DNA of 64,000 bases from Selenomonas dianae. Lineage in GTDB: Bacteria; Bacillota; Negativicutes; Selenomonadales; Selenomonadaceae. Shown here piece after piece: positions 72 through 37,976 of the stretch. Within the stretch, counting starts at the first letter, position 1. Every line of letters starts with the position of its first letter. The notes below the pieces were generated by a model. It was not told the origin of the DNA, did not search any database, and was given only the letters and a program-made list of their open reading frames with translations. The translations under genes were made by a program, and so were the position numbers. Where the stretch lies: the NCBI RefSeq assembly GCF_030644225.1, contig NZ_CP128650.1:1312001-1376000 (forward strand), read 5' to 3'.

Positions 72-240
72 CTAGGGAATCGCTGATAAAATGAAGTCCG
101 TCGGATTGGTGCAGATTTTTTGTCCTGTCAAGGAGACAAACCGGACGCATAGCATAGACTATGTGGAGGATTTGTCGACATAGACAGGGCGAAAAAGATG
201 TGCTAAGACGGCGGTGCTGAATTTATCAGTGCTTCCCTAG
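72..240 (+). repeat. TIR-bounded ~161 bp MITE-like element, copy 1
   Basis: Element 76-236, flanked on both sides by CTAG (72-75 and 237-240). The ends are inverted repeats: GGAATCGCTGATAAA on the left and the complement of GGAAGCACTGATAAA on the right. The interior is an imperfect palindrome around the hairpin near CGGACGCATAGC. Copies with the same ends and core lie at 23237-23398 (opposite orientation) and 37813-37972. No ORF is supported inside it. The ends and the YTAR-type duplication resemble IS5-family elements, so a non-autonomous derivative is the best guess. Confidence 0.8.
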
Positions 241-246
241 TTATCC

Positions 247-270
247 TCCGATTTGTTTCCTCGACAGGAC
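247..270 (-). repeat. Internal fragment of the TIR element
   Basis: Read on the minus strand, these 24 bases match the interior of copy 1 (GTCCTGTC, AGGA, ACAAA, CGGA) with three differences. No terminal repeat is attached. It lies about 25 bp past the stop codon of the exoprotein gene, so that 3' flank has taken more than one insertion or rearrangement. Confidence 0.55.
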
Positions 271-295
271 AGATGTCTGTTGGATCGGCAATTCC

Positions 296-3200
296 TCAGT
301 CGAGACGCAGCCCCTCGATGCTGAAATCGGATGCCATGTGAAAACGATAGATGCCGAGTGCTGCGGCGGAGACGGGGCGCGGCGAGCCATAGAGGTAGAC
401 GGTGTCGCCGACCCCCATGTCGAAGCGCGGCGTCGCGTCCTGCACGAGTGCGGCAAGGATGCCGTTTGCGGTCGGCATGGCATTGACAGTGCAAGCCGTC
501 GCGTTGCCCGCCGCCTGTCGGATGCGGTAGTTGCCGAGGACACCGTCGCTCACGCTGCCGATGCGTCCTGTGATGTCGTAGGTGCCTAGCGTGTCGGTAT
601 TCGTAATCGTACTGCCAAATGCAATGCCGTCCGAACCGAATACGCGCTCGTCCTCACCGTCCGCAAAGCCGTCCGCACGTCCCGTAAAGGCGGGCAGCGG
701 CTCGCCCTGCACAAGGCTCTGCGCGTCGGCGGTCAGCGTGAGGTCGCGATGTGTGATATTGCCCGCGCCCTGCGCGGCGGTCGCGGCGAGGCTGTAGTTG
801 TCTGCAGCCGCGCCTGTGAGTGCGACACCCGTGTAGCCCACCGCATTTGCCGTCGCGACATCCTTGCTGTTGTACGCCGCGCCCGTGGCGGTTGCTGTCA
901 CAAGGTTCTCCTCGCCCGCAACGACATTATTCAGTGCCGCATGGAACTTCGACGCATCTGCGGCAGTTGTGCCGTCGTAGGTCTTACTCTGCGCCGCAAC
1001 TGCGCCGAGGGTCAGCGCACGCCGCGTGATCGTGCCCGCGCCCTGCGCGGTATTCGCGATGCTGTAGTTCCCCGCGCCCGCACCCGTAAGCGCAACGCCC
1101 GTATAGTTGACCTTGCTTGCCTTGGCAACGTTCTTATCGTTGTATGCTGCGCCCGCAGCGGTCGCCGCTACGAGGTTTTCCTCGCCCGCGACAACGTTTC
1201 CGAGTGTTGCGCGGAACGCTGCTGCGTCTGCGGCGGTTGTACCGTCGTAGGTCTTTGTCTGCGCCGTGACCGCGCCAACGGTCAGCGTGCGCTTTGCAAT
1301 CGTACCTGTACCCTGCGCCGTCGTCGCGGCGAGGCTGTAGTTGCCCGCATCCGCACCCGCGAGGGCGACACCCGTGTAGTCAATGCGGTTCGCCGCAGCG
1401 ACGTTTTTGTCGTTATACGTCGCACCTGTGGCGGCGGCTGTGACATTATCCCCCGCGATGGTATTGCCGAGCGCCGCGCGGAACTTCGATGCGTCGGCGG
1501 CTCTCGTGCCGTCGTAGGTCTTTGTCTGCGCTGTGACTTCGCCAAGGGTCAGCGCACGGGGCGTGATTGTACCTGCACCCTGCGCGGTACTCGCGATACT
1601 GTAGTTCCCCGCGCCCGTACCTCTGAGCGCAAGCCCTGTGTAGTTGACCGTGGTTGCCGCAGCAACGTTCTTGTCGTTGTACGCCGCGCCCATGGCGGTC
1701 GCCGCTATACTGCTTTCCTCGCCCGCGACGACATTTCCGAGTGTCGCATGGAACTGCGCTGCGTCTGCGGCGGTTGTGCCGTCATAGGTCTTTGTCTGCG
1801 CCGCGACGGTATCAACGGTCAGCGCACGCCGCGTGATTGTGCCCGCACCCTGCGCGGTGTTCGCGATGCTATAGTTCCCCGCGCCCGTGCCTGTGAGCTG
1901 AACACCCGTGTAGGTGACCTTGTTCGCCCCTGCGACATTCTTGTCGTTGTAGGTCGCGCCCGCAGCGGTCGCTGTGACAAGGTTCTCCTCGCCCGCGACG
2001 AGATTGCCGAGCGTCGCATGGAACTTCGACGTGTCTGCGGAGATATTGCCGTCGTAGGTCTTACTCTGCGCCGCGACTGTGCCAACGGTCAGCGTGCGCC
2101 GCGAGATCGTGCCCGCGCCCTGCGCCGTGGTGGCGGCAAGCGTGTAGTTCCCGGCATCCGAACCCGCGAGACCGACACCCGTGTAGTCGATCCTGCTTGC
2201 CCCGGCGACGTTCTTGTCGTTGTACGCCGCACCCGTGGCGGTCGCCGTTACATTGTCACCCGAAACGACATTATTCAGCCCCGCATGGAACTTCGACGCA
2301 TCTGCCAATGTATTTCCGTCGTAGGTCTTTGTCTGCCCCGCGACTGCGCCGAGGGTCAGCGCACGCCGCATGATCGTGCCGATGCCCGTGAGCGTGGTCT
2401 TGTTCAGCGTGTAGTTGCCCGCGCCCGCCCCCGTGAGCGTCAGCCCGTTAAACGTGACGGTTTTGTCTGCGGCGGCATTCTTGTCGCTGTATGTGCCTGT
2501 GGAGGGAGCGAGTGCGATGCCCGTGCCCTCCGTGCCGACAAAGCCATCGAGGGTATAGTGCGTCCCCTTCGCGAGCGACTGCGTCACGTTTGCATTGCCG
2601 TCATAGGTCTTGTCAAAGCGTGCGCTGCTCGTGAGTGTGAGATCCAGCTCTTTCGGATAGATTGTCCCCACACCCCGTGCCTCCTTGACGGTATAGTTGC
2701 CCGCGCCCGTGCCCGTGAGCGCGAGATTTTGGAACGTCACTTCCTTATCCTTGCCGGCGTTCTTGTCCGCATACTTGCCCGTGACGCCACCCGCCAGTTC
2801 GATATTATCTTCGTCCTCGCTGCTGACAAAGCCCGTGAGACGATAGTGCCGCCACTTCGTGAGCCACTGCGTGACGGTATCGCTCCCGTCGTAGGTCTTG
2901 TCAAAGCGCGTGCCGCTCTTAAAGTCGAGCGTCAGCTCCTTCGGCTTGATCGTGTACGCGCCGCCGGTGATGTCATACTGCTCGCTGTAGGCATGATATG
3001 TGCCGGCATCCTTCCCTGCCGTCCAACTGATACCGGGCGCGAGACCCGCAATCGTCGGCGCCGTGCCGTCGTAGACACTCTCACGGTTTGCAAGGTGCTT
3101 CGTCCGAAGGAATGCCGTGAGCAGCGGCATGGTCTTGCCGTCGTAGATGCGCCACGGCGTCCTCTTGCCGCCCTCGGTGGCAACGTCGCTGCCCCATTCC

Positions 3201-4879
3201 GCGTATGTCGCCGCCTTCTTCATATCGTCCAGACTGTGCTCTTTGACATCGGTCACTGTAAAATTTCCCTGCTTTTTGCCGACGTCCTTCCGGATCAGAG
3301 CGTCGTTCCCATCCGTTACACTGCCCTCCTTCCATACGGCATGGCTGACCGTGGCACCGCTCAAAAGTCCCACAACACCACCGACTTGCGAATCCGTCTG
3401 TCCCGCTCGTTGCTCCACATCTCCCGTCTGCACGGCGTTCTGAACGCGGCTGTTTGCCTCTACCGATCCCGCAATGCCGCCGAGCATCTCATTTCCTAAG
3501 ACCTTGCCCGCATTCCGGACGTTCTGAACGGTGGAGTTGCCAATCATATATCCCACAATGCCGCCGACAGCCTTGTTCCCTTCGACTGTGCCCTCATGGT
3601 AGGCGTTCTCAAGGGTATATTGATCTAGCTCTCCCACAATGCCGCCGACCGCGGTATCGTCTCCATGAACCTTACCGCTGAAGGAGACGTTCCGTATGGT
3701 AGACCATCTTGCACTTCCCACAATGCCGCCGACGCTTGCCGCTCCCGACACGGAGGCACCCTTCAGGGAGACATTCTCGATGTGCGCGGACTCGATTTCT
3801 GCAAACATCCCGCGAGAATACTCCCCGAAACTATCGGTCGGTGACTTAATGGTCAGCCCCGTGATCGTGTGCCCTACGCCGTCAAATCGTCCCTTAAAGG
3901 TCCCTATGCTATTATCAGAACTGCCAATCGGCTGAAAGCCCCGCTCCCAGTCCTTTGTCTCGTTCGCCGCGATGTCATTCGCGAGCATATATCTGCCATC
4001 CACCTTCGCATTCATATTCTGGAGATCGTAGACGTCATGCACGCGCATATAGTCATAGTCCGTATGCGCCGTGCCACTGAGGTTCGTTACCACCCATCCG
4101 CGCGATTTTGCAGATGCGGCATGATGCGCGGCATTCGTGCTCGCATAGTTGGAGACCTCGTGCGGCGTATCTGTGCCGTTCACCTTGAAGTTCCTCGTGA
4201 TTTTATTGCCGACATCGTAGCCGATGTGCGGCGTTTCTTCGCTGCGGATGGTGACTGCACTGCCCGTGAGCGCCGCAGTGCCCGCCATGTTCTTCACATC
4301 ATCCGTGTTGATGACTTTGACGTTCTTGCCCTCGATGTAGAGTTTCGCCGTCTTTACCGTGCCGAGGTTCAGCACGTCGCCCATCTGTGCGGTGGCGGAG
4401 AGCGGGCTTGTGCCGTTTGCCTTGAATGTGTTCGTCGCTGTGGCAATATCAGCGGGATTCGCCGTCGAGAGGTAGAGTGCGCCCGTATTGACCTGCGATC
4501 CCTTCGCGAAGAGGATGCCGTGCGGGTTGACGAGGTAGACGTTCCTGCCGCCCTCGATCGTGCCGTAGATGTTCGACGCGCCCTCGCCCGTGACGAGGTT
4601 CAGATAGTCGCGCGTCTGCGCTCCTCTGTCAAAGCGCACCTTCTCGTTCTGCTCGATGGAGAAGTCCTCCCAGCGGAGGATATTGTGATCGGTATTGCCC
4701 GCGATGTCCATGACCGTGCCGTTCGTGGAGATATTCGCCTCGGTCTTGTTCGTCGCTTCGTTCGCGCCCTCGATGGGGAGCGCGTACGCGTGCGGTGCGG
4801 CAAAGGGGGCGGCAATCACGCCCGCAACGAGGGCACAGAGGATGGTGCGGCGCAGATGTGCGTTCGATGTTGTTTTCAT
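296..4879 (-). CDS. Two-partner secretion exoprotein (TpsA) with YDG/MBG repeats
   Basis: Large secreted protein of 1,527 aa, probably a surface adhesin exported by the partner encoded just upstream. The start chosen is the ATG at 4879, preceded by AAAGGATAAAGGA; it gives a clean signal peptide ending AYA near residue 33. Residues about 40-170 form a filamentous-hemagglutinin-type TPS secretion domain with NPHG at 118-121, where FHA and HMW1 have NPNG. Residues about 380-515 hold GLUG-like repeats (VGGIVG, GGIAG). Residues about 655-1380 hold eight KTYDG-containing units, six of them very regular; the last ~145 residues resemble an MBG-type domain and a short tail. There is no recognisable toxin or anchor. 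The transporter gene ends 26 bp upstream. Adhesion is an inference from the family. Confidence 0.88.
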   Translation of the reverse strand: MKTTSNAHLRRTILCALVAGVIAAPFAAPHAYALPIEGANEATNKTEANISTNGTVMDIAGNTDHNILRWEDFSIEQNEKVRFDRGAQTRDYLNLVTGEGASNIYGTIEGGRNVYLVNPHGILFAKGSQVNTGALYLSTANPADIATATNTFKANGTSPLSATAQMGDVLNLGTVKTAKLYIEGKNVKVINTDDVKNMAGTAALTGSAVTIRSEETPHIGYDVGNKITRNFKVNGTDTPHEVSNYASTNAAHHAASAKSRGWVVTNLSGTAHTDYDYMRVHDVYDLQNMNAKVDGRYMLANDIAANETKDWERGFQPIGSSDNSIGTFKGRFDGVGHTITGLTIKSPTDSFGEYSRGMFAEIESAHIENVSLKGASVSGAASVGGIVGSARWSTIRNVSFSGKVHGDDTAVGGIVGELDQYTLENAYHEGTVEGNKAVGGIVGYMIGNSTVQNVRNAGKVLGNEMLGGIAGSVEANSRVQNAVQTGDVEQRAGQTDSQVGGVVGLLSGATVSHAVWKEGSVTDGNDALIRKDVGKKQGNFTVTDVKEHSLDDMKKAATYAEWGSDVATEGGKRTPWRIYDGKTMPLLTAFLRTKHLANRESVYDGTAPTIAGLAPGISWTAGKDAGTYHAYSEQYDITGGAYTIKPKELTLDFKSGTRFDKTYDGSDTVTQWLTKWRHYRLTGFVSSEDEDNIELAGGVTGKYADKNAGKDKEVTFQNLALTGTGAGNYTVKEARGVGTIYPKELDLTLTSSARFDKTYDGNANVTQSLAKGTHYTLDGFVGTEGTGIALAPSTGTYSDKNAAADKTVTFNGLTLTGAGAGNYTLNKTTLTGIGTIMRRALTLGAVAGQTKTYDGNTLADASKFHAGLNNVVSGDNVTATATGAAYNDKNVAGASRIDYTGVGLAGSDAGNYTLAATTAQGAGTISRRTLTVGTVAAQSKTYDGNISADTSKFHATLGNLVAGEENLVTATAAGATYNDKNVAGANKVTYTGVQLTGTGAGNYSIANTAQGAGTITRRALTVDTVAAQTKTYDGTTAADAAQFHATLGNVVAGEESSIAATAMGAAYNDKNVAAATTVNYTGLALRGTGAGNYSIASTAQGAGTITPRALTLGEVTAQTKTYDGTRAADASKFRAALGNTIAGDNVTAAATGATYNDKNVAAANRIDYTGVALAGADAGNYSLAATTAQGTGTIAKRTLTVGAVTAQTKTYDGTTAADAAAFRATLGNVVAGEENLVAATAAGAAYNDKNVAKASKVNYTGVALTGAGAGNYSIANTAQGAGTITRRALTLGAVAAQSKTYDGTTAADASKFHAALNNVVAGEENLVTATATGAAYNSKDVATANAVGYTGVALTGAAADNYSLAATAAQGAGNITHRDLTLTADAQSLVQGEPLPAFTGRADGFADGEDERVFGSDGIAFGSTITNTDTLGTYDITGRIGSVSDGVLGNYRIRQAAGNATACTVNAMPTANGILAALVQDATPRFDMGVGDTVYLYGSPRPVSAAALGIYRFHMASDFSIEGLRLD
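735..2960 (-). repeat. Tandem ~268 bp repeats encoding YDG domains
   Basis: The codons for KTYDG recur near 973, 1241, 1508, 1777, 2047 and 2316, a step of 267-270 bp (about 89-90 codons), followed by two more diverged units near 2607 and 2887. The six regular units share long stretches of near-identical DNA, so recombination between them could change the repeat number. This is protein-coding repetition, not a CRISPR. Confidence 0.85.
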
Positions 4880-4905
4880 TTCCTTTATCCTTTCTCTACG
4901 ATTCA

Positions 4906-6555
4906 TTACCACACTTTACCGACCATAAACCAGAGGCGGTTCTTTGCCTGTGCCTCCTCGCCCGCATTCCGCGCAAGTCCGATGCGCCGCGCCCAGTCGA
5001 GCCGCAGGAAGCAGCTGCCGGGGCGGCTGTAGCTGATGCCGATGCCCCATCCCTTTAGCGTCGTGCCGCCGTCCACGCCGTCATGCGCATACTGCACATG
5101 ACCCGTATCGTAGTAGGTGCTGAGTTCGAGGTGCGGGATGCCCGTCCGATAGACGAGCTCCGCACTCGTGAGATAGCCGCTGTCGCCCGATCCCTCGCCC
5201 TGCGGGTAGGCGCGCACGCCGTTCGCCCCGCCGAGGTAGATCTCCTCGGAGCTGTCGAGGTTGTCCCCCGCCGCCTGCATCTGCGTCCTCACGTTCAGAT
5301 GCCACCGAGCCCCAAGTTCCTGCCGCACGCCGAGATTCAGCACGCCCTTGGTGAAGCTGCCCTCCGTGCCGGCGCGCCGCATCTGCAATGCCGCCATTCG
5401 CGAGTCTGCCGCAATCGTCCCGTGGTATGCCGTGAGGTCATAGGTGAGATGTGTGCGCGTGCGGTTCGTCTCGCCGCGCACGCCGAGACGGGCGGTGTTG
5501 CTGTGCTTTTCGAGGGTCATGCCGACATTCTTGTATTCATCCTCAAGCCTGCGCCAGTCCCATCCGTAGGTGAGGCTCAGGCTGTCCCTGCTCGTGCGCA
5601 GGAGCGGTGTTGTACCGAAGAAACTGATGGTGTCGGCTTGTCCCGTCGCACCGAGGCGGCGAAATGCACCCGCAAGCTCGTAGTTCATGCGGCTGACACC
5701 GAATCCGAGCACGGTGCCGTCCACGCCGACGGGGCGGGTATAGGTGAGGCTGTAGTTCCTCAGATCCTCGTTCGAGATCATTGCGCCGAGGCTCAGACGG
5801 TCGCCACTCTTCGTGAGGTTCGAGAGTCCAACCTGTGCGCCGTAGCGGTAGCGTCCCGAGGTCCTCCCCCCGTAGTTCTCGCTGTAGAGGACGAAGCTCT
5901 GCCGCCGCCCGTCCTTCACGCGGATGGTGAGGTCGCTCGTGCCGAACGCCGCGCCCGGCGAGAGCAGTCCCGCCGCCTCTACGCCGCTGAGGGCGGCGAT
6001 GTTATAGAGTGCCTTTTCGAGCCGCCGTCCCTCGATGGGTGCGCCCGTGTAGAGCGCGTGGGCGAGGCGGCGAATCTGTCCGTCATCAATGGCGGCGGAG
6101 TTCTCGATGTTGATATTGCCATAGCGTCCCGCGAGGATGCGGATCTCAAGCGTACCATCCGCACTCGTCTGCGGCGGGAGGTAGGCGGCTGCTGCGGGAT
6201 AGCCGTGGCTGCGTGCGTACTGTGTGAGCCCCGTGAGGAGTGTGTTCAGCTCCGCCTCGGAGATCGTGCGCTCTGTATAGCCTGCCGCCCTCTGATTCAG
6301 CTCGGTCGCATTCAGCTGCGTGCCGTCCTGCGTGACGGTGATGCGTGCGAGACGGAACGTCGCACGCCCTGCGCCATCCTCCGTCACAGGCAGACGGTTC
6401 TCAAGTGCTTCTTTCGTCGCGTTCTCCCCGATCTGTCCGGCATCGGATGCCGGCAGATTCGTCGCTGCAAGCGCGGCGGACGGGAGGAGGAATACAGCTG
6501 CGAGCGGCAGGGCGCAGTACAGTGCGGATCGACTGGAAATTAGCTTTGTTTTCAT
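4906..6555 (-). CDS. TpsB-family outer-membrane transporter (ShlB/FhaC type)
   Basis: Outer-membrane beta-barrel of 549 aa expected to secrete the exoprotein encoded 26 bp downstream. The ATG at 6555 follows AGGAGAG by 8 nt and gives a signal peptide ending ALA near residue 37. A POTRA_2 domain occupies roughly residues 60-150, with a second POTRA-like stretch to about 215, and the barrel follows. The loop motif that is VRGY in FhaC reads VRAY at 447-450. The last residue is Trp, an aromatic as expected for a barrel-insertion signal. Members of this family bind the TPS domain of their partner in the periplasm and pass it out unfolded. The pairing rests on adjacency. Confidence 0.9.
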   Translation of the reverse strand: MKTKLISSRSALYCALPLAAVFLLPSAALAATNLPASDAGQIGENATKEALENRLPVTEDGAGRATFRLARITVTQDGTQLNATELNQRAAGYTERTISEAELNTLLTGLTQYARSHGYPAAAAYLPPQTSADGTLEIRILAGRYGNINIENSAAIDDGQIRRLAHALYTGAPIEGRRLEKALYNIAALSGVEAAGLLSPGAAFGTSDLTIRVKDGRRQSFVLYSENYGGRTSGRYRYGAQVGLSNLTKSGDRLSLGAMISNEDLRNYSLTYTRPVGVDGTVLGFGVSRMNYELAGAFRRLGATGQADTISFFGTTPLLRTSRDSLSLTYGWDWRRLEDEYKNVGMTLEKHSNTARLGVRGETNRTRTHLTYDLTAYHGTIAADSRMAALQMRRAGTEGSFTKGVLNLGVRQELGARWHLNVRTQMQAAGDNLDSSEEIYLGGANGVRAYPQGEGSGDSGYLTSAELVYRTGIPHLELSTYYDTGHVQYAHDGVDGGTTLKGWGIGISYSRPGSCFLRLDWARRIGLARNAGEEAQAKNRLWFMVGKVW

Positions 6556-6581
6556 CAGAATTTCTCTCCTAAACATGGACT

Positions 6582-6610
6582 TCTATTTGCACTTTATTTT
6601 AACAAGTCAA
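6582..6610 (-). promoter_or_regulatory. Probable promoter of the two-partner secretion operon
   Basis: TTGACT (6605-6610) and AATAGA (6582-6587) are 17 bp apart on the minus strand, 27 bp upstream of the transporter start codon. The -35 is good and the -10 is poor. The surrounding DNA is AT-rich compared with the coding sequence. Confidence 0.4.
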
Positions 6611-6671
6611 TCCATTAGTGACAAGGAATTTGCAGAAAGTGACGCATTCAGGTATGAAAGTGATGTATTTG

Positions 6672-6703
6672 GAAAAAAAATATCCCCCGCGCTTGACGGG
6701 GGC
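6672..6703 (-). terminator. Terminator after hslU
   Basis: On the minus strand CCCCCG pairs with CGGGGG around a short loop, then ATATTTTTTTT. It closes the dprA-topA-trmFO-hslVU transcript and separates it from the secretion operon. Confidence 0.8.
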
Positions 6704-6712
6704 GTTTGTCAT

Positions 6713-8107
6713 TTACAAAATGAAGCGGGATATGTCGTGGTTGCCCGCAATGTCGGAGAGACAGTGATCCACATACGCACTGTCTATGACGATCTCCTTA
6801 TCTTCGAGCTCCGGCGCCTCAAATGAGAGTTCTTCCAGAAGTTTTTCAAGGAGGGTATAGAGCCGCCGCGCACCGATGTCCTCCGTCTGCTCATTGACGG
6901 TCTCGGCAAGCTCGGCAAGACGGCTGACGGCATCGTCCGAAAAACGCAGGGAAACGCCCTCCACGCCAAGCAGCGCACGGTACTGTTTGATGAGTGCGTT
7001 CTTCGGCTCGGTAAGGATGCGCTCAAAGTCCGCCTTGACGAGCGACTTCAGCTCCACGCGGATCGGGAAACGGCCTTGCAACTCGGGAATGAGGTCGGAT
7101 GGCTTTGCCATATGGAATGCGCCCGCCGCAATGAATAGGATGTGATCGGTCTTGACGGGGCCGTACTTTGTCATCACTGTCGAGCCCTCGACGATGGGCA
7201 GAATGTCGCGCTGTACGCCCTCGCGCGAGATGTCCGCCCCCGCGCTGCGCCCGTTGCTGACGGCGACCTTGTCGATCTCATCGAGGAACACGATGCCGCT
7301 GTACTCAGCGGCGTGTACCGCCTCATCGGCGACCGCATCCATATCGACGAGCTTGTCCGCCTCCTCGGCGGTAAAGATCTTACGCGCCTGTGCGACCGTG
7401 ACCTTACGCTTGCGGCGATTTTTGGGGACGAGCCTGCCGATCATGGATTGGAGGTTGTCGCTCATCCCCTCAAGCGACGAGCCGGCGAACATATTGCCGG
7501 CAGGACGCGCGGACTCCTCCACCTCGATCTCGATCACATCGCTTTCCAGCTCGCCCTTGTGGAGGCGCTTGCGTACCCACTCACGTCCCGCCTGATACTT
7601 CGGCGGCTCCTCGGTCTCCTGTTTCTCCTCCGTGTCCGAGGAAAAGATACTGCTGAGAGGGTTGGATGTTTTTTTTGCCGGAGGGACAAAGACATCAATC
7701 AGACGTTCCTCGGCATTTTCCCGCGCCTTTTCCTGCACGTCCTCGATCTTCTGCTGACGCACCATGCGCACGGAGGTCTCGACAAGATCGCGCACGATGG
7801 ACTCGACATCGCGTCCGACATAGCCGACCTCTGTGAACTTCGTCGCCTCCACCTTCAGAAACGGCGCACGAACCAGACGGGCAAGACGGCGTGCAATCTC
7901 CGTCTTGCCGACACCGGTCGAACCGATCATCAGGATGTTCTTCGGAATGACATCCTCGCGCATCTCATCGTTCAGCTGACGGCTGCGCCAGCGGTTGCGG
8001 AGTGCGATGGCGACGGAGCGCTTTGCCTCGTTCTGTCCCACAATGTATTTGTCCAACTCTGCAACAATCTCACGCGGTGTCTGTTCGTTGACCCCGATCT
8101 GACTCAT
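6713..8107 (-). CDS. hslU: HslU, ATPase subunit of the HslUV protease
   Basis: AAA+ unfoldase of 464 aa that feeds proteins into the HslV peptidase chamber in the cytoplasm. The N-terminus ([16 protein letters not shown]) is typical. Walker [10 protein letters not shown] is near residues 57-65, the I domain runs to about residue 235, Walker B (FLDEIDK) follows, and the C-terminal part has the conserved DIGARRL. The length is normal. The start overlaps the hslV stop as ATGA, so the two subunits are translationally coupled. In many Firmicutes codY follows; here the gene ends at a terminator instead. Confidence 0.97.
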
Positions 8108-14281: not shown

Positions 14282-14657
14282 ATAGCATTGGCTGTGAGAA
14301 ACCAATAAGCCGAGTTCTGTTCCGCCCAATGGGCGGCGACAATCATTTATCTGGGACGCTTGTCACCAAGCGCCTCAAGCGACACTACCCGGAAGGCCGA
14401 CGGGCCGCCTTAATCCTTCCCTATTTGGTCTTGCTCCATGTGGGGTTTACCAAAGCCAGCCGGTCACCCGACTGCTGGTGCGCTCTTACCGCACCTTTCC
14501 ACCCTTACCGGTCAGAAACCGGCGGTATAAATTTCTATAGCACTGTCCCTGAGGTTGCCCTCGCCGGACGTTATCCGGCACACTGCCCTGTGGAGCTCGG
14601 ACTTTCCTCGCCCATCCGAAACGGGTGGACGCGATTGTCTCGGTTTCTCATACCAAT
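14282..14657 (-). ncRNA. rnpB: RNase P RNA, bacterial type A
   Basis: Catalytic RNA that removes tRNA 5' leaders. On the minus strand the conserved GAGGAAAGTCCGAGCTCC and the later GGGTGGAAAGGTGCGGTAAG are present, with the 3' block GAACAGAACTCGGCTTA. The two ends pair to form helix P1 (GAGAAACC with GGTTTCTC, extended by ATTGG with CCAAT). A TATAAT box lies just upstream. The exact ends are estimated from the promoter and P1. No U-rich terminator is obvious before the NlpC gene, so the two may share a transcript. Confidence 0.95.
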
Positions 14658-23232: not shown

Positions 23233-23402
23233 CTAGGGAAGCACTGATAAATTCAGCCGCGCCATCTTGACGCATCTTTTTTTCCCGCACTGTGTCGGCA
23301 AATCCTCCACATAGCTTTGGCTATGCGTCCGGTTTGCCTCCTTGTTCGGACGAAAAAATCTACGCCAATCTGACGGACTTCATTTTATCAGCGATTCCCT
23401 AG
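23233..23402 (-). repeat. TIR-bounded ~162 bp MITE-like element, copy 2
   Basis: Element 23237-23398 with CTAG on both sides (23233-23236 and 23399-23402), inverted relative to copies 1 and 3. It shares their terminal repeats, the central hairpin CATAGC/GCTATG and the outer imperfect pairing. The right-hand CTAG contains the recD2 stop codon (TAG on the minus strand), so it abuts the gene without changing its product. It lies just upstream of the pyr promoter. Confidence 0.8.
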
Positions 23403-29173: not shown

Positions 29174-29221
29174 CTTTTTCTGATTTTACTTCAGTTCCAT
29201 GGAATCGTGCTGACGATTGCC

Positions 29222-30946: not shown

Positions 30947-30961
30947 AGCCGTCCCCTCCTC

Positions 30962-31414
30962 TCACCGCAGCAGCTCCTGAATGCGTTCCACGATGTTCTC
31001 TGCCGTATCCTTTGGTTTTACAAGCACAAAGATACTGTCGTCGCCCGCGACTGTCCCGATGATCTCCTGCCAATCCGAGGCATCAAGTGCAGCGGCAACT
31101 GTCGCAGCGGCTCCCGGGATCGTTTTCACCAGTACAATGTTCTCACTGAAATCACACAGCACCACATTGTCCTTGAAGATCCGCTTCATCCGCCCCTCAG
31201 AAAAATGCATCACCTCATGTGGGGATACGGCATAGCGGTAGCGACCGCCGTCCGCAGGCACTTTGATCAAAAAAAGTTCCTTGATGTCCCGCGAGATGGT
31301 CGCCTGTGTCACACGCATATGACGCGCGCGCAATGCCTCGGCGAGAGCCTCCTGCGTCTCAATGATCTCCTCACCGATAATTTTTTTGATGAGTTCGTGG
31401 CGTCGACTTTTCAT
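30962..31414 (-). CDS. argR: Arginine repressor ArgR/AhrC
   Basis: Hexameric arginine-dependent regulator of 150 aa. The N-terminal winged helix includes QATISRDIKELFLIKV; the C-terminal domain has GTVAGDDSIFVL for arginine binding. The ATG at 31414 follows AGGAGAG. It sits between nadK and recN as in most Firmicutes. No ARG-box search could be run. Confidence 0.96.
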   Translation of the reverse strand: MKSRRHELIKKIIGEEIIETQEALAEALRARHMRVTQATISRDIKELFLIKVPADGGRYRYAVSPHEVMHFSEGRMKRIFKDNVVLCDFSENIVLVKTIPGAAATVAAALDASDWQEIIGTVAGDDSIFVLVKPKDTAENIVERIQELLR

Positions 31415-31425
31415 TCCACTCTCTC

Positions 31426-32280
31426 CTAGCAGTTTCTCCAGAGTTTTGTACGCAATGTTTGATAGTAATCCTTGTCCTCGAATTTGATGATGCCCGCGCG
31501 CACATCCGAACATTTGACCGTAACCGTGTCATCGGGATGAATGGGTGTCGTTTCCTGCCCGTCCAACGTTACGATAATGCTCTGCCGTGTGTCGACGAGG
31601 TGGATGTGCACAACATCCTCCACGCGGATGATCAGCGGGCGGATGTTCAGTGTATGAGGGCAGATCGGTGTGAGTACGAGCCCCTTCACCATCGGGTTCA
31701 TGATGGGACCGCCCGCCGAAAGAGAGTATGCCGTCGATCCGGTCGGCGTGGCAACGATGAACCCGTCCGCCTTACATTCCACGAGCGGTATATCATTGAC
31801 CGCAAGCCCGAGTGAAATGATACGCGCCGGATCGCCCTTCATAACGACAATATCGTTGATTGCGTATCCAAGAACGTGTTCCGAACCGTCCGGCTTCGTG
31901 ACAAATCCCGCGAGGAAACGCCGCCACTCGATGCGATAGTCGCCCGCACAGAGTTTTTCAAGACGTTCCTCAAGCTCGTTCTGCTCAATATCTGCCATAA
32001 ACCCGAGCGTACCCATGTTGATGCCGCAGACAGGTACGGGGTTCTCCACATAGCGGCGGCAGATACCAAGCAGTGTTCCATCCCCGCCGAGGCTGAGCGC
32101 AAAATCCGCCGGCTGATGCTCGATGTCGTCCACGCCGCAGTCCTCCATGCCAAACTCCGCCGCACGCACATGCGACAGGAGAATACGCGTCTCACGCGCG
32201 GCAAAGAACGCACGAATCCGCCGTAAAACTTCGCGTGTCTCCGGCTTAATCAGATTCGGAAAAACCGCAACCGTCCTCAT
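31426..32280 (-). CDS. nadK: NAD kinase
   Basis: Makes NADP from NAD and ATP; 284 aa. The motif GGDGTLLG lies near residue 65 and a second conserved block contains GSTAYSLSAGGPI. The ATG at 32280 is 7 nt after GAGGGG; the longer frame begins close to the tlyA stop and lacks a better ribosome site. It lies 11 bp past tlyA. Confidence 0.96.
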   Translation of the reverse strand: MRTVAVFPNLIKPETREVLRRIRAFFAARETRILLSHVRAAEFGMEDCGVDDIEHQPADFALSLGGDGTLLGICRRYVENPVPVCGINMGTLGFMADIEQNELEERLEKLCAGDYRIEWRRFLAGFVTKPDGSEHVLGYAINDIVVMKGDPARIISLGLAVNDIPLVECKADGFIVATPTGSTAYSLSAGGPIMNPMVKGLVLTPICPHTLNIRPLIIRVEDVVHIHLVDTRQSIIVTLDGQETTPIHPDDTVTVKCSDVRAGIIKFEDKDYYQTLRTKLWRNC

Positions 32281-32291
32281 AGCAACGCCCC

Positions 32292-33104
32292 TCATTGATC
32301 CAGCGCCCGATGCGCCTCTGCCACAATCTCATGTACAGAAGCCGCCTCGACCCGCTGCTTCCCATCTTCCTGCATCCGCAGATACAGGAGGTATTCGATA
32401 TTCCCCTTTGGTCCCTTCACCGGAGAGTATGTAAGTCCGGCAGGGGTGAAATGCTGTGCCTCCGCCACGCGGAGAACCTTCCGGATCACATCCTCATGCA
32501 CAGCAGGATCGCGGACAACACCGTTCTTGCCCACGCGATCCTTTCCCGCTTCAAACTGCGGCTTAATGAGGGCGATGACCTCACCGCACGCCGAGAGCAG
32601 CCCGTGTACGACGGGAAGAACCTTGTCCAGCGAGATAAACGCCACGTCGATGGAGGCGAAGTCCGGAGCCTCACCCAGCATCTCAGCGGTAACATTTCGG
32701 ATATTCGTACGCTCCATATTGATGACGCGGGCATCCGTACGCAGCTTCCAATCGAGCTGTCCATAGCCGACATCAATCGCAAACACCTTTATCGCGCCGT
32801 TTTGGAGCATACAGTCCGTAAATCCGCCCGTCGAAGCACCGATGTCCGCCGCCGTTTTTCCCTTAAGTACGACACCGAAAGCCGCCATTCCTTTTTCCAG
32901 CTTCAGCCCGCCGCGGCTGACATAGGGCAGATCCTCCCCCACAACGCGGAGCAGCGCATCCATCGGCACTGTCGTCCCCGCCTTGTCGATGCGTTGCTCA
33001 TCCACGAGCACCTGCCCCGCCATAATGAGACGTTTCGCACGCTCCCGACTGGGCGCAAATCCCTGCTCCACAAGCAGAATATCCAACCGTTCTTTCTTCA
33101 TCAT
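32292..33104 (-). CDS. tlyA: TlyA-family rRNA 2'-O-methyltransferase
   Basis: Protein of 270 aa with an N-terminal S4 RNA-binding domain (LDILLVEQGF, then RERAKRLIMAGQV) and an FtsJ-like methyltransferase fold with ADIGASTGGFTD as the SAM site. Relatives methylate 16S and 23S rRNA, which affects capreomycin sensitivity, or are called hemolysin A. Two adjacent ATGs at 33104 and 33101 are equally possible. It follows ispA directly; in many Firmicutes dxs lies between them. Confidence 0.93.
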   Translation of the reverse strand: MMKKERLDILLVEQGFAPSRERAKRLIMAGQVLVDEQRIDKAGTTVPMDALLRVVGEDLPYVSRGGLKLEKGMAAFGVVLKGKTAADIGASTGGFTDCMLQNGAIKVFAIDVGYGQLDWKLRTDARVINMERTNIRNVTAEMLGEAPDFASIDVAFISLDKVLPVVHGLLSACGEVIALIKPQFEAGKDRVGKNGVVRDPAVHEDVIRKVLRVAEAQHFTPAGLTYSPVKGPKGNIEYLLYLRMQEDGKQRVEAASVHEIVAEAHRALDQ

Positions 33105-33106
33105 CT

Positions 33107-33985
33107 CTATTGCTTTCGCTTCACGAGATACGCGACAAGCGCACGCAGAAAGTCCGCCTCTGCACCAAACGCGGAGAGCGCGTCGACTGCTTCGTTCACA
33201 CTGCGGCGTGCAAGCTCCTGCGCCTCCGAGAGAGAGGTCAGCGATACGTAGGTCGACTTGTGATTTTTCTCATCGCTGCCGACGGGCTTTCCGATCTCGT
33301 CGGCACTGCCGATGACATCGAGAATATCATCCGTAATCTGGAACGCAAGCCCAAAGTGATCGGCATAGGACGTGAGTGCCGCCAGCTGCTCCTGTGTCGC
33401 ACCTGCGAGAATCGCACCGCTGCGCAGAGCTGCATGGAAGAGGGCTCCCGTCTTTCCCATGTGGATACGGCGCAGCTCCTCCATCGAAATCTGCACGCCC
33501 TCCGCTCTGAGATCGAGCACCTGTCCGCCAACCATCCCCTCGGCTCCCGCCGCACGACTGATCTCATCCACAACCCGCAGGAGTGCCGCTGCAGGCACGT
33601 CCTTCTGCCGCAGAATCACCGTAAATGCGAGTGTGAGAAGGGCATCCCCCGCGAGGATTGCAACGCCGTCCCCATACACCATATGATTTGTCAGCTTGCC
33701 CCGACGGTATTCGTCATCATCCATCGCGGGAAGATCATCATGGATGAGCGAATACGTGTGGATCATCTCAAGCGCGGAGGCAACGGGCAAAAATTTCGTT
33801 CCATCTGCGCCCACGGCATCCGCCGCCGCCATCAAAAGGATCGGACGCAGACGTTTCCCGCCCGCCATGAGGCTGTACTCCATCGACTCCCGCAGAATCT
33901 CATCCAGCACAGGAGTCCTTGCCAACTCATCCTTCAGCGCACGCTCAACAAGTTCCTGCCGTTTCTTCCACAGTTCCTTCATCAT
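33107..33985 (-). CDS. ispA: Short-chain polyprenyl diphosphate synthase (farnesyl type)
   Basis: Condenses DMAPP/GPP with IPP to give farnesyl diphosphate, the precursor of undecaprenyl and quinone chains; 292 aa. The first Asp-rich motif reads DDLPAMDDDEYRRG, the long form with two extra residues typical of bacterial FPP synthases; the second is TDDILD. GGKRLRP marks the N-terminal diphosphate site. The start shares a base with the xseB stop (TGATGATG); the second ATG is 3 bp on. Confidence 0.95.
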   Translation of the reverse strand: MMKELWKKRQELVERALKDELARTPVLDEILRESMEYSLMAGGKRLRPILLMAAADAVGADGTKFLPVASALEMIHTYSLIHDDLPAMDDDEYRRGKLTNHMVYGDGVAILAGDALLTLAFTVILRQKDVPAAALLRVVDEISRAAGAEGMVGGQVLDLRAEGVQISMEELRRIHMGKTGALFHAALRSGAILAGATQEQLAALTSYADHFGLAFQITDDILDVIGSADEIGKPVGSDEKNHKSTYVSLTSLSEAQELARRSVNEAVDALSAFGAEADFLRALVAYLVKRKQ

Positions 33986-34221
33986 CAGCCTCCGATCTGC
34001 AGATTCTCTTCCGAAATGCCTGTTGCCGTCTCCTTCACCAAAAGATCCATCGTTTCCTCGGCGCGCTTGAGGGAGGTCATACAGACATCAGACAGCTTGA
34101 TTCCCTCCGAATACTTCGCCATGAGATCCGCAAGTGACAGCTCTCCCGTTTCAATCTCCGCCACAATCTGCTCCAACGCGCCGAGTGCCTCCTCAAACGC
34201 CATCTCCTTTTTACGCGCCAT
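33985..34221 (-). CDS. xseB: Exodeoxyribonuclease VII small subunit
   Basis: Small helical subunit of 78 aa that binds XseA; the complex degrades single-stranded DNA from both ends. FEEALGALEQIVAEIETG is characteristic. The ATG at 34221 follows AAAGGAG and is 1 bp past the xseA stop. Confidence 0.95.
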   Translation of the reverse strand: MARKKEMAFEEALGALEQIVAEIETGELSLADLMAKYSEGIKLSDVCMTSLKRAEETMDLLVKETATGISEENLQIGG

Positions 34222-34222
34222 G

Positions 34223-35416
34223 CTACTTCTCCTTTGCCTCAACTACGGCAGATATTTTTCCGTCCGCAAATGTAATATTCAGATGATCGCCCGCCGCAAG
34301 TTCCTTCGCACGTGTCACCGTTTTCCCGGCCTTCTCCACAACACTGAACCCGCGGTAGAGAATCTGTACGGGATTCAGGAGCTCAAGCCGTTTCAGTACG
34401 AGCTCAAGGCGATGGCGAGCGTTCATACGTCTGTCCTTCGCCGCACGATGGAGACGTTCTGCGGCACGATCCGTACGCTGCACCGCCCCCGCAAGCAGGA
34501 GCTTCGGATGGCGGTACCACGGGCGTTCGATCAGCGCCCGCAGATGCGCCTTGTACTGCTCCATCCGTCGCGTGCGTCCCGCATGGAGACGCGCGAGAAG
34601 CGCTCCTGCATACTGACGCAGTTCTGCGGCATCGGGTACGGCAAACTCCGCCGCCTGCGACGGTGTCGCGGCGCGTCTGTCACTGACAAAGTCCGCGAGT
34701 GTCGTATCCGTTTCATGTCCGACGGCAGAAATCACAGGGATGCGTGAATCGTAGATCGCACGCACAACAGCCTCCTCGTTGAACGCCCACAGATCCTCTG
34801 CCGAGCCGCCGCCGCGTCCGACGATCAGTACATCCACGGGGTATTTCTCATTGAAGAAGTGGACTGCCGCCGCGATCTGCCCCGCTGCCTCTGTTCCCTG
34901 CACAAGAACGGGATGAAGGATCAGCTGCACATTCGGCCAGCGACGCTTTGCAACCTTGTGGATGTCGCGCAAAACCGCCCCGGCAGAGGATGTGACAATC
35001 CCGATCCGACGCGGAAAGCGCGGCAGCGGCTGCTTGTGCGCCTCATCAAAAAGACCTTCGGCACAGAGTTTTTCCCTCAGCTGTTCAAAGGCAAGTGCAA
35101 GAGCCCCCGCCCCTTTCGGGGTCAGGGCATTCACATAGAGCTGATAAACGCCGTCACGTTCATAGACGGACACACTGCCGCCCGCAATCACCTGCATTCC
35201 GTTCTCCGGCGTAAAACGCAGATTCCGCGCACAACCGTTAAACATAACGCACTTCATGCTTGCACCCGCATCCTTGAGGGTAAAATAGCAATGCCCCGAA
35301 GGGTAGCGTTTGAAATTGGACACTTCGCCGCGAATCAGGATATCCGACAGGATTGCCTCTCCTTCGAACAGCCCCTTGATGTATCGCGTCACATCTGTAA
35401 CAGAGTGGACGGTCAT
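34223..35416 (-). CDS. xseA: Exodeoxyribonuclease VII large subunit
   Basis: Catalytic subunit of 397 aa. An N-terminal OB fold (ILIRGEVSNFKRYPSGH) is followed by the nuclease core with GRGGGSAEDLWAFNEE and GHETDTTLADFVSD, then a helical region and a short C-terminal domain. The ATG at 35416 follows GAAAGGAA; the longer frame extends into the upstream terminator and is rejected. A hairpin terminator immediately upstream separates it from nusB. Confidence 0.96.
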   Translation of the reverse strand: MTVHSVTDVTRYIKGLFEGEAILSDILIRGEVSNFKRYPSGHCYFTLKDAGASMKCVMFNGCARNLRFTPENGMQVIAGGSVSVYERDGVYQLYVNALTPKGAGALALAFEQLREKLCAEGLFDEAHKQPLPRFPRRIGIVTSSAGAVLRDIHKVAKRRWPNVQLILHPVLVQGTEAAGQIAAAVHFFNEKYPVDVLIVGRGGGSAEDLWAFNEEAVVRAIYDSRIPVISAVGHETDTTLADFVSDRRAATPSQAAEFAVPDAAELRQYAGALLARLHAGRTRRMEQYKAHLRALIERPWYRHPKLLLAGAVQRTDRAAERLHRAAKDRRMNARHRLELVLKRLELLNPVQILYRGFSVVEKAGKTVTRAKELAAGDHLNITFADGKISAVVEAKEK

Positions 35417-35434
35417 ATAATTCCTTTCCGCATT

Positions 35435-35480
35435 GAAAAAAAAGAACCATTGCACGAAATACTCGCGCAACGGATTCTTT
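35435..35480 (-). terminator. Terminator between nusB and xseA
   Basis: On the minus strand AAGAATCCGTTGCGCGA pairs imperfectly with TCGTGCAATGGTTCTT, followed by eight T. It stands only about 20 bp upstream of the xseA start and 17 bp past the nusB stop, with no clear promoter after it, so it may act as a partial terminator or attenuator. Confidence 0.75.
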
Positions 35481-35496
35481 CTTTGTCAGCAGTTCC

Positions 35497-35907
35497 TTAA
35501 AGCGTTTTTTGCATTGCAGCAAGGATCCCGTTTACATAGCGGCGCGCATCATCCGAGCCGTATTTTTTTGCAAGTTCGACCGCCTCATTGATGGCAACCG
35601 GCGGATCAATGCGTTCCTCCTGATAGCGCATTTCGTAGTACGCCATACGAATCAGATTGCGATCCACAGCCGCCATACGGTGGAGTTTCCACTCCTTCGC
35701 AAGGCGGGCGATCTCCGCATCTATCTCCATGAGATGCGCACGCGTTCCCTGCACCAGCGCATGTGCATAGGGCAGATCATGCTCCGTAAGTCCCTCGACC
35801 TCATCCGCCGCAAGCTCGCTTGCATGATCGGCGGACACATCATCCGTGCCGAACTCAAGCTGAAACAGTGTCATAAGCGCGGCTTCCCGCGCGTGCCTCC
35901 GGCTCAT
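35497..35907 (-). CDS. nusB: Transcription antitermination factor NusB
   Basis: All-helical protein of 136 aa that with NusE binds boxA RNA in rRNA operons. The start MSRRHAREAALMTLFQLEF is typical and the C-terminal VAINEAVELAKKYGSDDARRY block is conserved. It overlaps the DUF2273 stop by 4 bp. The asp23-amaP-DUF2273-nusB order is standard for Firmicutes. Confidence 0.96.
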   Translation of the reverse strand: MSRRHAREAALMTLFQLEFGTDDVSADHASELAADEVEGLTEHDLPYAHALVQGTRAHLMEIDAEIARLAKEWKLHRMAAVDRNLIRMAYYEMRYQEERIDPPVAINEAVELAKKYGSDDARRYVNGILAAMQKTL

Positions 35908-36149
35908 GACATCCTCCGAAACAAACGGTTCAGTACAGACGTGTCAAGCAGTTCCGCCCAACCGCCGACACGCTCCGCACGCAGTCCGAGCCCCATGCCG
36001 ATACCTGCACAGAGAAGCACAAATACAATATGCCAGAAGCCAAAGAGCAGAACAGAAATGCCAAACAGCAGACCGATAAGCAGTCCCGCTGTTCGTCCGC
36101 AATGGTTCTCCCATTGATCCTGAAGGAGGAGCAGTAAATTTTCTTTCAT
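35904..36149 (-). CDS. DUF2273 small membrane protein
   Basis: A protein of 81 aa with two hydrophobic segments (about 20-38 and 41-56) and a basic region after them. The layout matches the DUF2273 family found between amaP and nusB. Its function is not known; a part in anchoring the Asp23 complex at the membrane is guessed from position. Confidence 0.85.
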   Translation of the reverse strand: MKENLLLLLQDQWENHCGRTAGLLIGLLFGISVLLFGFWHIVFVLLCAGIGMGLGLRAERVGGWAELLDTSVLNRLFRRMS

Positions 36150-36161
36150 GCCTCTCTCCTA

Positions 36162-36740
36162 CTAAGACACAGAACGCTTCGACGAAGAGCCGGCGTTCGT
36201 GATCTCCGTTACGCGAAGTTCCACGGGGACATCCGAAATACCGAGCACATCATGGAGTTCCTGCCGCACATGCGCAGTCAGCTCCTCCGATACCGCATTC
36301 AGGCTCGTATGCTCTGCAAGTGTGATTTTGAGTTCCACCTGCATCGGCGTTGCCGCCGTGTCCTTTGGGGCATCCTGCACCGAAATCGCCGCCGTCGCCG
36401 TACGCACGCCCTGCATGGAAAGTGCCACGCGCTCGACGACACCGCGTACAGCAGACAGCGCGACCTGTACTGCACCCGCAGGCGTATCGACAACCATAAA
36501 CTCGCCATCGGTGCGCGAAGACGCCGCTGTTCGTGCAAAGACGGCAAAGAACAACTTGAGACTGATGAGAAAAACCACCCCACACACTGCAAGAAGTTCC
36601 TGACGCGACAGGGCATAGCGCAGTTCATTCAGCCATACGCTCTCCGGAACAATACGCAAGGCAATGACAAGAACCGCGATGACGAGCACCATCACAAAGA
36701 GCACATAGGGCAGGAGCAGCAGACGATTTAGAATTCCCAT
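36162..36740 (-). CDS. amaP: Alkaline shock response membrane anchor protein AmaP
   Basis: Membrane protein of 192 aa with hydrophobic segments near residues 5-30 and 47-66 and a soluble C-terminal part. In Staphylococcus AmaP tethers Asp23 to the membrane. The asp23-family gene lies 21 bp upstream. The assignment rests on topology plus context more than on motifs. Confidence 0.85.
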   Translation of the reverse strand: MGILNRLLLLPYVLFVMVLVIAVLVIALRIVPESVWLNELRYALSRQELLAVCGVVFLISLKLFFAVFARTAASSRTDGEFMVVDTPAGAVQVALSAVRGVVERVALSMQGVRTATAAISVQDAPKDTAATPMQVELKITLAEHTSLNAVSEELTAHVRQELHDVLGISDVPVELRVTEITNAGSSSKRSVS

Positions 36741-36761
36741 CGCTTGACTCCTCTGTCATAT

Positions 36762-37163
36762 TCAGCGTACACGCATTTCCTCCGGCTTCGGCTCCTCCTC
36801 AGGGAAACCGACGCCCTGCACATGGACATTGACTTCGATCACCGAAAGTCCTGTCATCGTCTCAATTGCACGCTTGACATTCTCCTGCGCGGCAAGTGCG
36901 ACTTCGGGGATACGGATGCCGTACTTTACGATGATGTAAAGATCAATCGCGGCTTCCTTCTCCCCCACCTCGACCTTGACACCCTTGGAGAAATTCTTGC
37001 GCCCGAGGATCTCGGCGATACCGCCGGCGATGCCGCCGCTCATCCCCGCCACGCCTTCGACCTCTGTCGTAGCGAGCCCCGCGATGATGCTGACGACCTC
37101 ATCCGCTACGCGGATCGTGCCAAGTCCCGTTTCCTTCTTCACTACGTTCTTATCGTTGTCCAT
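36762..37163 (-). CDS. Asp23/Gls24 family envelope stress protein
   Basis: Protein of 133 aa with the family core IRVADEVVSIIAGLATTEVEG and VKYGIRIPEVALAAQENV. Family members are abundant membrane-associated proteins tied to cell-envelope stress. The ATG at 37163 follows GGAGG by 7 nt. It starts the asp23-amaP-DUF2273-nusB group, 31 bp after efp. Confidence 0.93.
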   Translation of the reverse strand: MDNDKNVVKKETGLGTIRVADEVVSIIAGLATTEVEGVAGMSGGIAGGIAEILGRKNFSKGVKVEVGEKEAAIDLYIIVKYGIRIPEVALAAQENVKRAIETMTGLSVIEVNVHVQGVGFPEEEPKPEEMRVR

Positions 37164-37194
37164 GTCATATCCTCCGTTCGCAAGAAAAACTATA

Positions 37195-37752
37195 TTAGCC
37201 GCGCTCAATGTAGTTGCCCGTGCGCGTATCAATGCGGAGCACATCTCCCTCATTGATGAAAAGCGGCACGCGAACCTCATAGCCGGTCTCGACCTTTGCC
37301 ATCTTCGTCGCACCTGTCGCCGTATTCCCCTTGACGCTCGGCTCGCACTCAATGACCTTGAGACTGACGGAGTTCGGGAGCTGGATGCCGATGATACGGC
37401 CCTTGAACTGCTGCATCGCAACCTCCATGTTCTCCATGAGGTAGTTCAGCGCATCGCCGAGCTGCTCACGCGAGAGCTCGGACTGCTCATATGTCTCCGT
37501 GTTCATGAACGTATAGACACCGTCCGCCTCATAGAGGTACTGCATCGTATGCGTCTCAAGGTGTGCCGCAGGCATCTTTTCGTTCGGGTTAAACGTACGC
37601 TCAACCACGGCGCCGGTTTCGACATTCTTGATCTTCGTACGGACGAACGCGGCACCCTTCCCCGGCTTTACGTGCTGGAAATCAACAATCTGCCAGACGC
37701 CCCCATCGTATTCAATGGTAAGGCCGGTGCGAAAATCGGTGCTGTTAATCAT
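37195..37752 (-). CDS. efp: Translation elongation factor P
   Basis: Relieves ribosome stalling at proline runs; 185 aa with the KOW-like N-terminal domain and two OB domains. The tip loop reads HVKPGKGAAFV, with Lys at the site that is modified in many bacteria. The ATG at 37752 follows GGAGG by about 10 nt. A longer frame runs back through the repeat element and is rejected. The element ends only about 60 bp upstream. Confidence 0.97.
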   Translation of the reverse strand: MINSTDFRTGLTIEYDGGVWQIVDFQHVKPGKGAAFVRTKIKNVETGAVVERTFNPNEKMPAAHLETHTMQYLYEADGVYTFMNTETYEQSELSREQLGDALNYLMENMEVAMQQFKGRIIGIQLPNSVSLKVIECEPSVKGNTATGATKMAKVETGYEVRVPLFINEGDVLRIDTRTGNYIERG

Positions 37753-37787
37753 ATTATTTGTTCCTCCATACAATACATATTCTTGAG

Positions 37788-37808
37788 GGAATCGCTGATA
37801 ATGCTTCC
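37788..37808. repeat. Palindromic end-remnant beside copy 3
   Basis: 21 bp that read as the left end of the element (GGAATCGCTGATAA) fused to its right end (TGCTTCC). It abuts the left duplication of copy 3, just as the remnant at 47-71 abuts copy 1. Confidence 0.6.
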
Positions 37809-37976
37809 CTAAGGAATCGCTGATAAAATGAAGTCTGTCAGATTGGTGCAGAATTTTTGTCCTGCCAAGGAAACAAACCGGACGCATAGCCAAAGCTATG
37901 TGGAGGATTTGTTGACACAGGCAGGGCGAAAAGGATGCGCCAAGATGATGGGCTGAATTTATCAGTGCTTCCCCAA
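37809..37976 (+). repeat. TIR-bounded ~160 bp MITE-like element, copy 3
   Basis: Element 37813-37972 in the same orientation as copy 1, flanked by CTAA on the left and CCAA on the right (a YTAR-type duplication with one change). Its core contains CATAGCCAAAGCTATG and the outer arms GTCCTGCC and GGCAGGGC pair. It lies between the M24 peptidase gene and efp, inside a run of minus-strand genes. Confidence 0.8.

Follow-up and report, generated by a model that had tools for sequence, protein, structure and literature searches.

The window analysed here, 64,000 nucleotides of the Selenomonas dianae genome (RefSeq assembly GCF_030644225.1, contig NZ_CP128650.1, positions 1,312,001 to 1,376,000 of the forward strand), holds three copies of a palindromic element of about 161 bp. 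We consider it probable (about 0.8) that these are miniature inverted-repeat transposable elements (MITEs) moved by an IS5-type helper insertion sequence (IS), that their interior forms a one-strand rod, and that this core is carried by different transposon ends. In the mechanism we propose, the IS5-family transposase of an IS with matching ends would move the non-autonomous element and leave a 4-bp, A/T-rich duplication, and the sequence between the ends would give a rod-shaped nucleic acid with pairing kept on one strand, recurrent 2x2 G-A/A-G loops and a conserved apical stem-loop; we regard both of these steps as well supported. That the same core would have been carried by different ends in other Negativicutes families and several other phyla is supported, with less certainty. 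The original prediction, made from the window alone, had recognised a mobile element; it had not noticed the one-strand, RNA-like core, nor that this core extends to other taxa and to other ends.

All three copies were confirmed in the sequence at the predicted positions and with the predicted flanks (CTAG/CTAG, CTAG/CTAG and CTAA/CCAA). The copies, their flanks and the adjoining remnants are as follows.

47..71: 25-bp remnant, composed of two element ends and adjoining copy 1; flanks TTTA/CTAG (direct sequence reading)
72..75: copy 1, left 4-bp flank CTAG (direct sequence reading)
76..236, + strand: copy 1, full element (161 bp); folds at -80.6 (+) and -43.4 (-) kcal/mol
237..240: copy 1, right 4-bp flank CTAG (direct sequence reading)
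23233..23236: copy 2, 4-bp flank CTAG; before it CGATTCC, a weak 8-bp end-like stretch
23237..23398, - strand: copy 2, full element (162 bp) in the opposite orientation; folds at -72.8 (its own + strand) and -45.2 kcal/mol (other strand)
23399..23402: copy 2, other 4-bp flank CTAG; the close relatives G012 and G004 have one TTAG at this site
37788..37808: 21-bp remnant, composed of two element ends and adjoining copy 3; flanks TGAG/CTAA; absent in 13/13 relatives
37809..37812: 4-bp CTAA common to the remnant and copy 3
37813..37972, + strand: copy 3, full element (160 bp); folds at -84.4 (+) and -49.5 (-) kcal/mol
37973..37976: copy 3, right 4-bp flank CCAA

The window contains seven 15-mers resembling an element end (at most two mismatches), against 0.39 expected, and none of 100 shuffles reached seven. 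Short two-end remnants adjoin copy 1 (47-71) and copy 3 (37788-37808), and elsewhere in the genome the copy L025 (position 237139) adjoins 20 bp of another right end.

Insertion sites and a likely helper insertion sequence

Copies in the S. dianae genome were counted in 290,022 of the 2,391,311 bases (12%, window included) of its single 2.39-Mb contig. These bases hold at least 62 full-length copies with both ends, 156-166 bp long, 30 in each orientation and two undecided, and they gave 85 separate profile matches, 63 of which were at least 140 bp long. A blastn search with copy 1 returned at least 41 matches on the contig (best 40 of 125 candidates scored). End-like sites with at most two mismatches numbered 231 in the genome, against four for the reversed pattern; because 100 of the 231 were listed and examined, copies showing just a reverse end may have escaped. 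The family therefore reaches far beyond three loci and its flanks vary, which excludes the case named beforehand as counting against mobility, namely copies confined to these three loci with invariant flanks. Two of the copies lie 240 bp apart with the same left flank (L006, genome positions 1481289-1481689), as if tandemly duplicated.

Identical 4-bp flanks border 32 of the 62 copies, against 5.2 (standard deviation, sd, 2.1; maximum 15) in 10,000 pair shuffles, and identical 5-bp flanks border one. Among copies from relatives, 104 distinct sequences after removal of three repeats of a sequence already present, the 4-bp flanks are identical in 52, against 8.7 (sd 2.7, maximum 19 of 5000). The predicted YTAR duplication was thus correct in its length of 4 bp and too narrow in its sequence: strict YTAR stands in 23 left and 26 right flanks of the 62, and the targets are A/T-rich, with TTTA, TAAA, TTAT and others common as exact duplications.

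Comparison with relatives revealed empty sites, with about one 4-mer present, for both window copies compared, as the original prediction anticipated. The site of copy 3 is uninterrupted, with about one 4-mer, in 13 of 13 same-genus relatives. At the site of copy 2, G012 and G004 hold a single TTAG where S. dianae has CTAG on both sides; three other relatives align but are too divergent there, and eight match the flanks in separate pieces. Since both the 21-bp remnant and the full copy 3 are missing from all 13 relatives, this site has likely undergone two successive insertions, the first of which would since have been shortened.

A full IS with the same ends, which the original prediction had proposed to look for, was found in five sister genomes. 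There are six copies (two in G001 and one each in G002, G005, G006 and G007), 1235-1247 bp long, with the ends GGAAWCRCTGATAAA and YTAR in 11 of their 12 flanks. The transposase of one copy (L090) matches the NCBIfam model NF033581, ‘IS5 family transposase’ (IS5_4), with 309 bits against a cut-off of 140, in agreement with the IS5-type transposase that had been predicted; in both G001 copies (two of the six) the transposase is interrupted by a stop. The element and IS ends match at 93-94% over 15-18 bp, and past these ends the interior of the element and the helper IS have nothing in common but words of chance length. Within the genus, PF01609 was matched in 6 and DUF772 in 6 of 14 genomes and neither in S. 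dianae, where PF01609 and PF05598 were searched and other transposase families were not. In G011 (L129:877-2127) two IS-type ends at a distance of 1251 bp enclose a full element, which has a DUF772 transposase frame beside it and apparently inserted into a helper copy.

The copies are short, lack a coding gene and carry paired terminal inverted repeats (62 copies), share their ends with an IS, duplicate their target and, for copies 2 and 3, have empty counterparts in relatives. Every MITE feature that we tested was thus present, and on this sequence evidence we class the window copies as MITEs because of their duplicated flanks, the empty sites, the IS with the same ends in sister species and the lack of a match in this genome to either transposase family searched. 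We infer that an IS5-type helper moved them.

Two candidates for an autonomous copy in S. dianae were rejected. One, with ends 794 bp apart, turned out to combine a normal copy with an unrelated end that follows it. The other has ends about 1380 bp apart and no target duplication (L052:1502-2882, genome positions 1523993-1525373); the 426-amino-acid glycosyltransferase-like frame between its two element ends is possibly captured cargo or the product of a rearrangement. Copy 1 had no match in plasmid and phage collections, and a Geobacter copy (see below) had none in the plasmid collection. A contig filed as viral in IMG/VR (649989997; L471, L472) contains three full-length element matches, and could be a prophage or misfiled chromosome.

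Folding and pairing on one strand

Copies from S. dianae and its genus were oriented by an internal sequence motif. On the strand so designated +, the S. dianae copies fold with a mean of -74.1 kcal/mol, against -46.2 on the - strand, and the + strand was the more stable in all 60 oriented copies; for the relatives' copies the means are -77.3 and -47.3, with + more stable in 103 of 104. The earlier description of a long hairpin on either strand is consequently accurate for the + strand; it holds weakly for the other and is misleading in this form. When the arms were paired in a strand-neutral manner, transition mismatches on the + strand were G-U in 404 cases and A-C in 179, and the remaining mismatches were purine-purine in 883 and pyrimidine-pyrimidine in 98, counts that, like the folds, are not independent across copies because these share an ancestor. 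Random strand-swapping of the mismatches gave 0-3/300 in seven of the nine copies tried, and 34/300 and 73/300 in the other two. The simplest reading of a one-strand rod would be an RNA made from the + strand. No Rfam 15 family reached its gathering threshold in the element, for which the best of the weak matches scored 10.7 bits versus 39; the remainder of the window gave RNase P RNA alone, and 12 loci of other taxa gave tRNAs alone.

These counts bear on the view that the family is an ordinary MITE. It would then derive from an IS5 relative by internal deletion, replication alone would maintain its palindrome, with template switching between the arms correcting mismatches, and its interior would have no RNA function. 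The ends, target duplications and helper are all ordinary, and remnants with a shortened interior exist (those at 47-71 and 37788-37808 in the window and a 59-bp form in L075), as this view would have it. Correction between arms, however, predicts no one-strand lean towards G-U or purine-purine mismatches, and the interior does not match that of the helper. We consider this explanation distinctly unlikely, also in view of the loops and the changing ends described below.

Folded single-stranded DNA could also produce a strand difference, if one strand formed the rod during replication or movement and was recognised by a protein. DNA hairpins also tolerate G-T pairs and tandem G-A mismatches. 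Tandem G-A loops are, however, typical of RNA, and the ends, the DDE-type transposase and the 4-bp duplications all suggest movement as double-stranded DNA. A folded-DNA origin of the rod is unlikely, and we keep it as a rival to the simpler RNA reading.

A tree of 164 copies helped us to separate selection from mutation. It contains 65 pair-keeping double changes, against 3-12 when partners were slid by 3-5 columns. Losses of Watson-Crick pairs led to G-U 43 times and to A-C 10 times on internal branches, and 101 and 63 times on terminal ones; the ratios were 42:13 and 102:61 in a repeat run that resolved the tree differently at random, for which a per-pair sign test gave 30 versus 13. Among the S. 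dianae copies, RNAalifold pairing gave G-U versus A-C counts of 14 versus 3 for shared and 13 versus 16 for private changes. RNAalifold may be biased towards pairings that favour G-U, and the count was therefore repeated with strand-neutral pairing, which gave 15:4 and 14:16. The p values, 0.014 for the sign test and 0.037 for the strand-neutral count, are optimistic, since change events are not independent. Mutation bias was rejected as the source of the lean: terminal branches show 177 G>A and 115 C>T changes, which are about equal per consensus base (48 G, 29 C), so that there is no clear C>T excess, and the lean is alike in A-T pairs (41 versus 24) and G-C pairs (103 versus 50). We read this pattern as pairing that would have been maintained during the spread of lineages, with little maintenance once copies are resident.

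Matches to the core in other Negativicutes and other phyla

By blastn the element was present in 18 of 60 relatives, S. dianae included, and in all 14 of the genus, two of which had 1-2 matches. For a search of the class we built a covariance model from 60 S. dianae copies and applied it at an E value of 1e-4 to 300 Negativicutes genomes. The rod was found in 59 of these, belonging to 21 of 97 genera, and 241 gave no match. A closer search of 15 Negativicutes genomes yielded 1-110 matches each, with full-length copies of 156-165 bp among the matches listed. In 39 model-aligned class sequences, 51 of 56 pairs have changed on both sides, and cells with double changes number 439, against 109 (sd 10.5) in shuffled and 47-76 in slid alignments. 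Internal loops with GA opposite GA occur at four places, in 29, 21, 28 and 29 of the 39 sequences, a retention that correction between the arms of an ordinary MITE does not predict. Four copies examined in G224 and G228, which belong to another family, keep the core and have no IS5-like ends. In L331 (G228) and L332 (G224) we observed the core with the same flanks in both genomes and with an altered outer stem; it is possibly a settled copy.

Beyond the class, an exact scan of the genome collection for the apical motif returned at least 120 stretches. Twelve of the 80 listed came from records bearing the labels Desulfobacterales (3), Syntrophobacteria (2), Deltaproteobacteria (2), Geobacter argillaceus (1), Bacteroidales (2), Planctomycetota (1) and Nitrospinota (1). 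A model built from the 39 class sequences matches 10 of these 12, two of them partly, with E values down to 6e-4; in the two unmatched stretches the motif lies at a contig end. With at most 150 candidates scored per genome, the eight other-phylum genomes behind them gave 3-62 matches each at E 0.001, and Selenomonas ruminantium gave 53, some places being counted on both strands. In an alignment of 32 sequences (30 distinct) from the eight genomes, both sides have changed in 53 of 56 pairs, and double-change cells number 506, against 152 (sd 9.5) in shuffled and 72-158 in slid alignments. Compensatory covariation therefore exceeds its controls in both the class-wide and the other-phylum alignments, each of which was fitted to the structure.

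We weighed the possibility that the other-phylum repeats are convergent, that is, unrelated palindromes that have in common a hairpin motif alone and were caught by the exact-motif scan. These genomes were indeed found through the motif, and by our own hand estimate a few chance matches to it are expected. Against convergence, most of the ten model matches are full length, and the 3-62 matches per genome were obtained without requiring the exact motif. Moreover, 22 of 33 copies have CCGCAG ahead of the apical stem (0 of 6600 mononucleotide shuffles do), and 23 of the 33 contain the 3' motif (3 of 6600 shuffles do); motif-selected copies are among the 33. Convergence thus appears improbable, and a common core remains our preferred reading.

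The outer repeats vary both between and within genomes; S. ruminantium has both GGAAACACTGATTAAAT and GGGCGTGTTGATTAAAT. For its second end type this species holds the relic of an IS, in which the ends read GGGCGTGTT, TA stands at each border and a fragment of an IS5_3 transposase remains (139 bits, cut-off 110). A helper search with PF01609 only, covering 30 loci in nine genomes, yielded this S. ruminantium relic with matching ends and one end beside a fragment. Because the same core lies between different terminal repeats, we consider that it would have been carried by different ends, and the same observation again disfavours an internally deleted IS5 relative. By eye, an A/T-rich, TAAAT-like stretch lies 10-15 bp inside the end in L324, L326, L339, L340 and at other ends; it might be a -10 box.

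Several observations weigh against our reading. The sister IS copies mostly lack identical flanks, with the two sides identical in one of six. The fold preference of the distant copies (+ more stable in 39 of the 40 Negativicutes copies examined, with one tie, and the model strand in 33 of 33 from the motif scan) was measured on a strand set by the covariance model, which favours that fold. Slid partners in part show the G-U lean as well, with internal G-U:A-C ratios of 43:24 and 38:17 at -3 and -4 (23:21, 31:24, 15:19 and 17:23 at the other four slides), so that composition accounts for some of it. Splitting the changes by frequency gives a weaker contrast in the 164-copy set, at 18:11 for changes in at least four copies and 10:19 for those in single copies. 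No helper for the ends was found in the eight other-phylum genomes, where PF01609 only was searched. Several of these genomes are metagenome-assembled, with contamination possible, and since the motif led us to them, how many there are carries no information on frequency. Finally, the orientation of copies relative to neighbouring genes is unbiased: among 55 copies classified (seven were left out), 16 point the same way as both neighbours, 23 point against both, and 9 lie in convergent and 7 in divergent positions.

This last result speaks against a role in host mRNAs, and hence against the copies being host regulators, RNA elements in the transcripts of their neighbours (acting in termination, processing or stability) that are retained for that purpose. 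Such a role would suit the location of the copies, 58 of the 62 being intergenic and four overlapping a predicted frame according to a simple, crude codon-based caller. Besides the balanced orientations, the private changes in resident copies do not lean to G-U (14 versus 16), and the window sites of copies 2 and 3 are empty in relatives. We regard host regulation as very unlikely. IS110 bridge RNA and integron attC sites were also considered, and dropped on general grounds.

Returning to a mobile element with a one-strand rod, we infer from the sequences that the core would be transcribed, descend from a common source across phyla and have a function. The folded RNA would promote the element's spread at a stage that does not depend on a particular transposase. 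It might, for instance, lower the cost of an insertion to the host, through a transcript that is processed, terminated or left untranslated, or it might bind a host factor. That the RNA helps the element to spread or be tolerated at a step common to different transposases is a tentative proposal, to which we give well under an even chance. With slightly more confidence, still short of even odds, we put forward a transposon-independent mobile structured RNA: one rod core that may have been taken up between the ends of several different ISs because the RNA aids the spread or tolerance of its carrier; going by record labels, this would span at least five phyla.

Other features were noted in the window. 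Positions 1-45, just left of copy 1, form a strong hairpin followed by T-rich sequence, terminator-like by eye. Positions 746-2953 hold tandem repeats with a unit of about 270 bp, imperfect at 60-88% likeness, and are probably a repetitive coding region. An RNase P RNA of bacterial class A (305 bits) lies at 14291-14650 on the - strand.

Known elements and the meaning of a conserved interior

The family resembles IS5-family bacterial MITEs in being short and geneless and in having matching ends, a target duplication and a helper IS elsewhere, and differs from them in an interior that is conserved in shape across a class, occurs between other ends and is unmatched by that of the helper. In the Correia/NEMIS elements of Neisseria, according to PMC10969869, transcripts are cut by RNase III. 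These are likewise small intergenic mobile repeats with transcripts that form long hairpins, a likeness by description and not by sequence. Their ends and targets differ from those of the present family, and BOX elements are, unlike it, built of modular boxes within one lineage. BOX elements of Streptococcus pneumoniae are similar, by description only, in being multi-copy with an RNA-like structure (PMC10969869). A legend in PMC2700814 presents 24 Geobacter ‘short RNA elements’, intergenic and with a central palindrome GRCGTAGCGCTGCTACGCC, and includes examples from G. sulfurreducens, G. uraniireducens and Desulfotalea. That palindrome resembles our apical stem, and the legend is silent on transposon ends (PMC2700814). 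The Chunjie MITE of Geobacter uraniireducens, 178-235 bp long, is also a multi-copy MITE in Geobacter, a likeness by description only (PMC10969869).

The original prediction knew of no named family, and we likewise obtained no Rfam 15 match at threshold for the element, and our searches of open-licence papers in PubMed Central listed no account of the present family. As far as searched, a structured core retained across a class and flanked by varying ends appears to be undescribed. MITEs are usually seen as decayed local by-products of one IS. In the present family the interior looks old and conserved and the ends look changeable, so that the question of functional MITE interiors becomes directly testable. 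The core is a candidate RNA family, unmatched by Rfam 15 models in the sequences searched, and its copies offer many natural variants with which the partner and role of the RNA core may be found.

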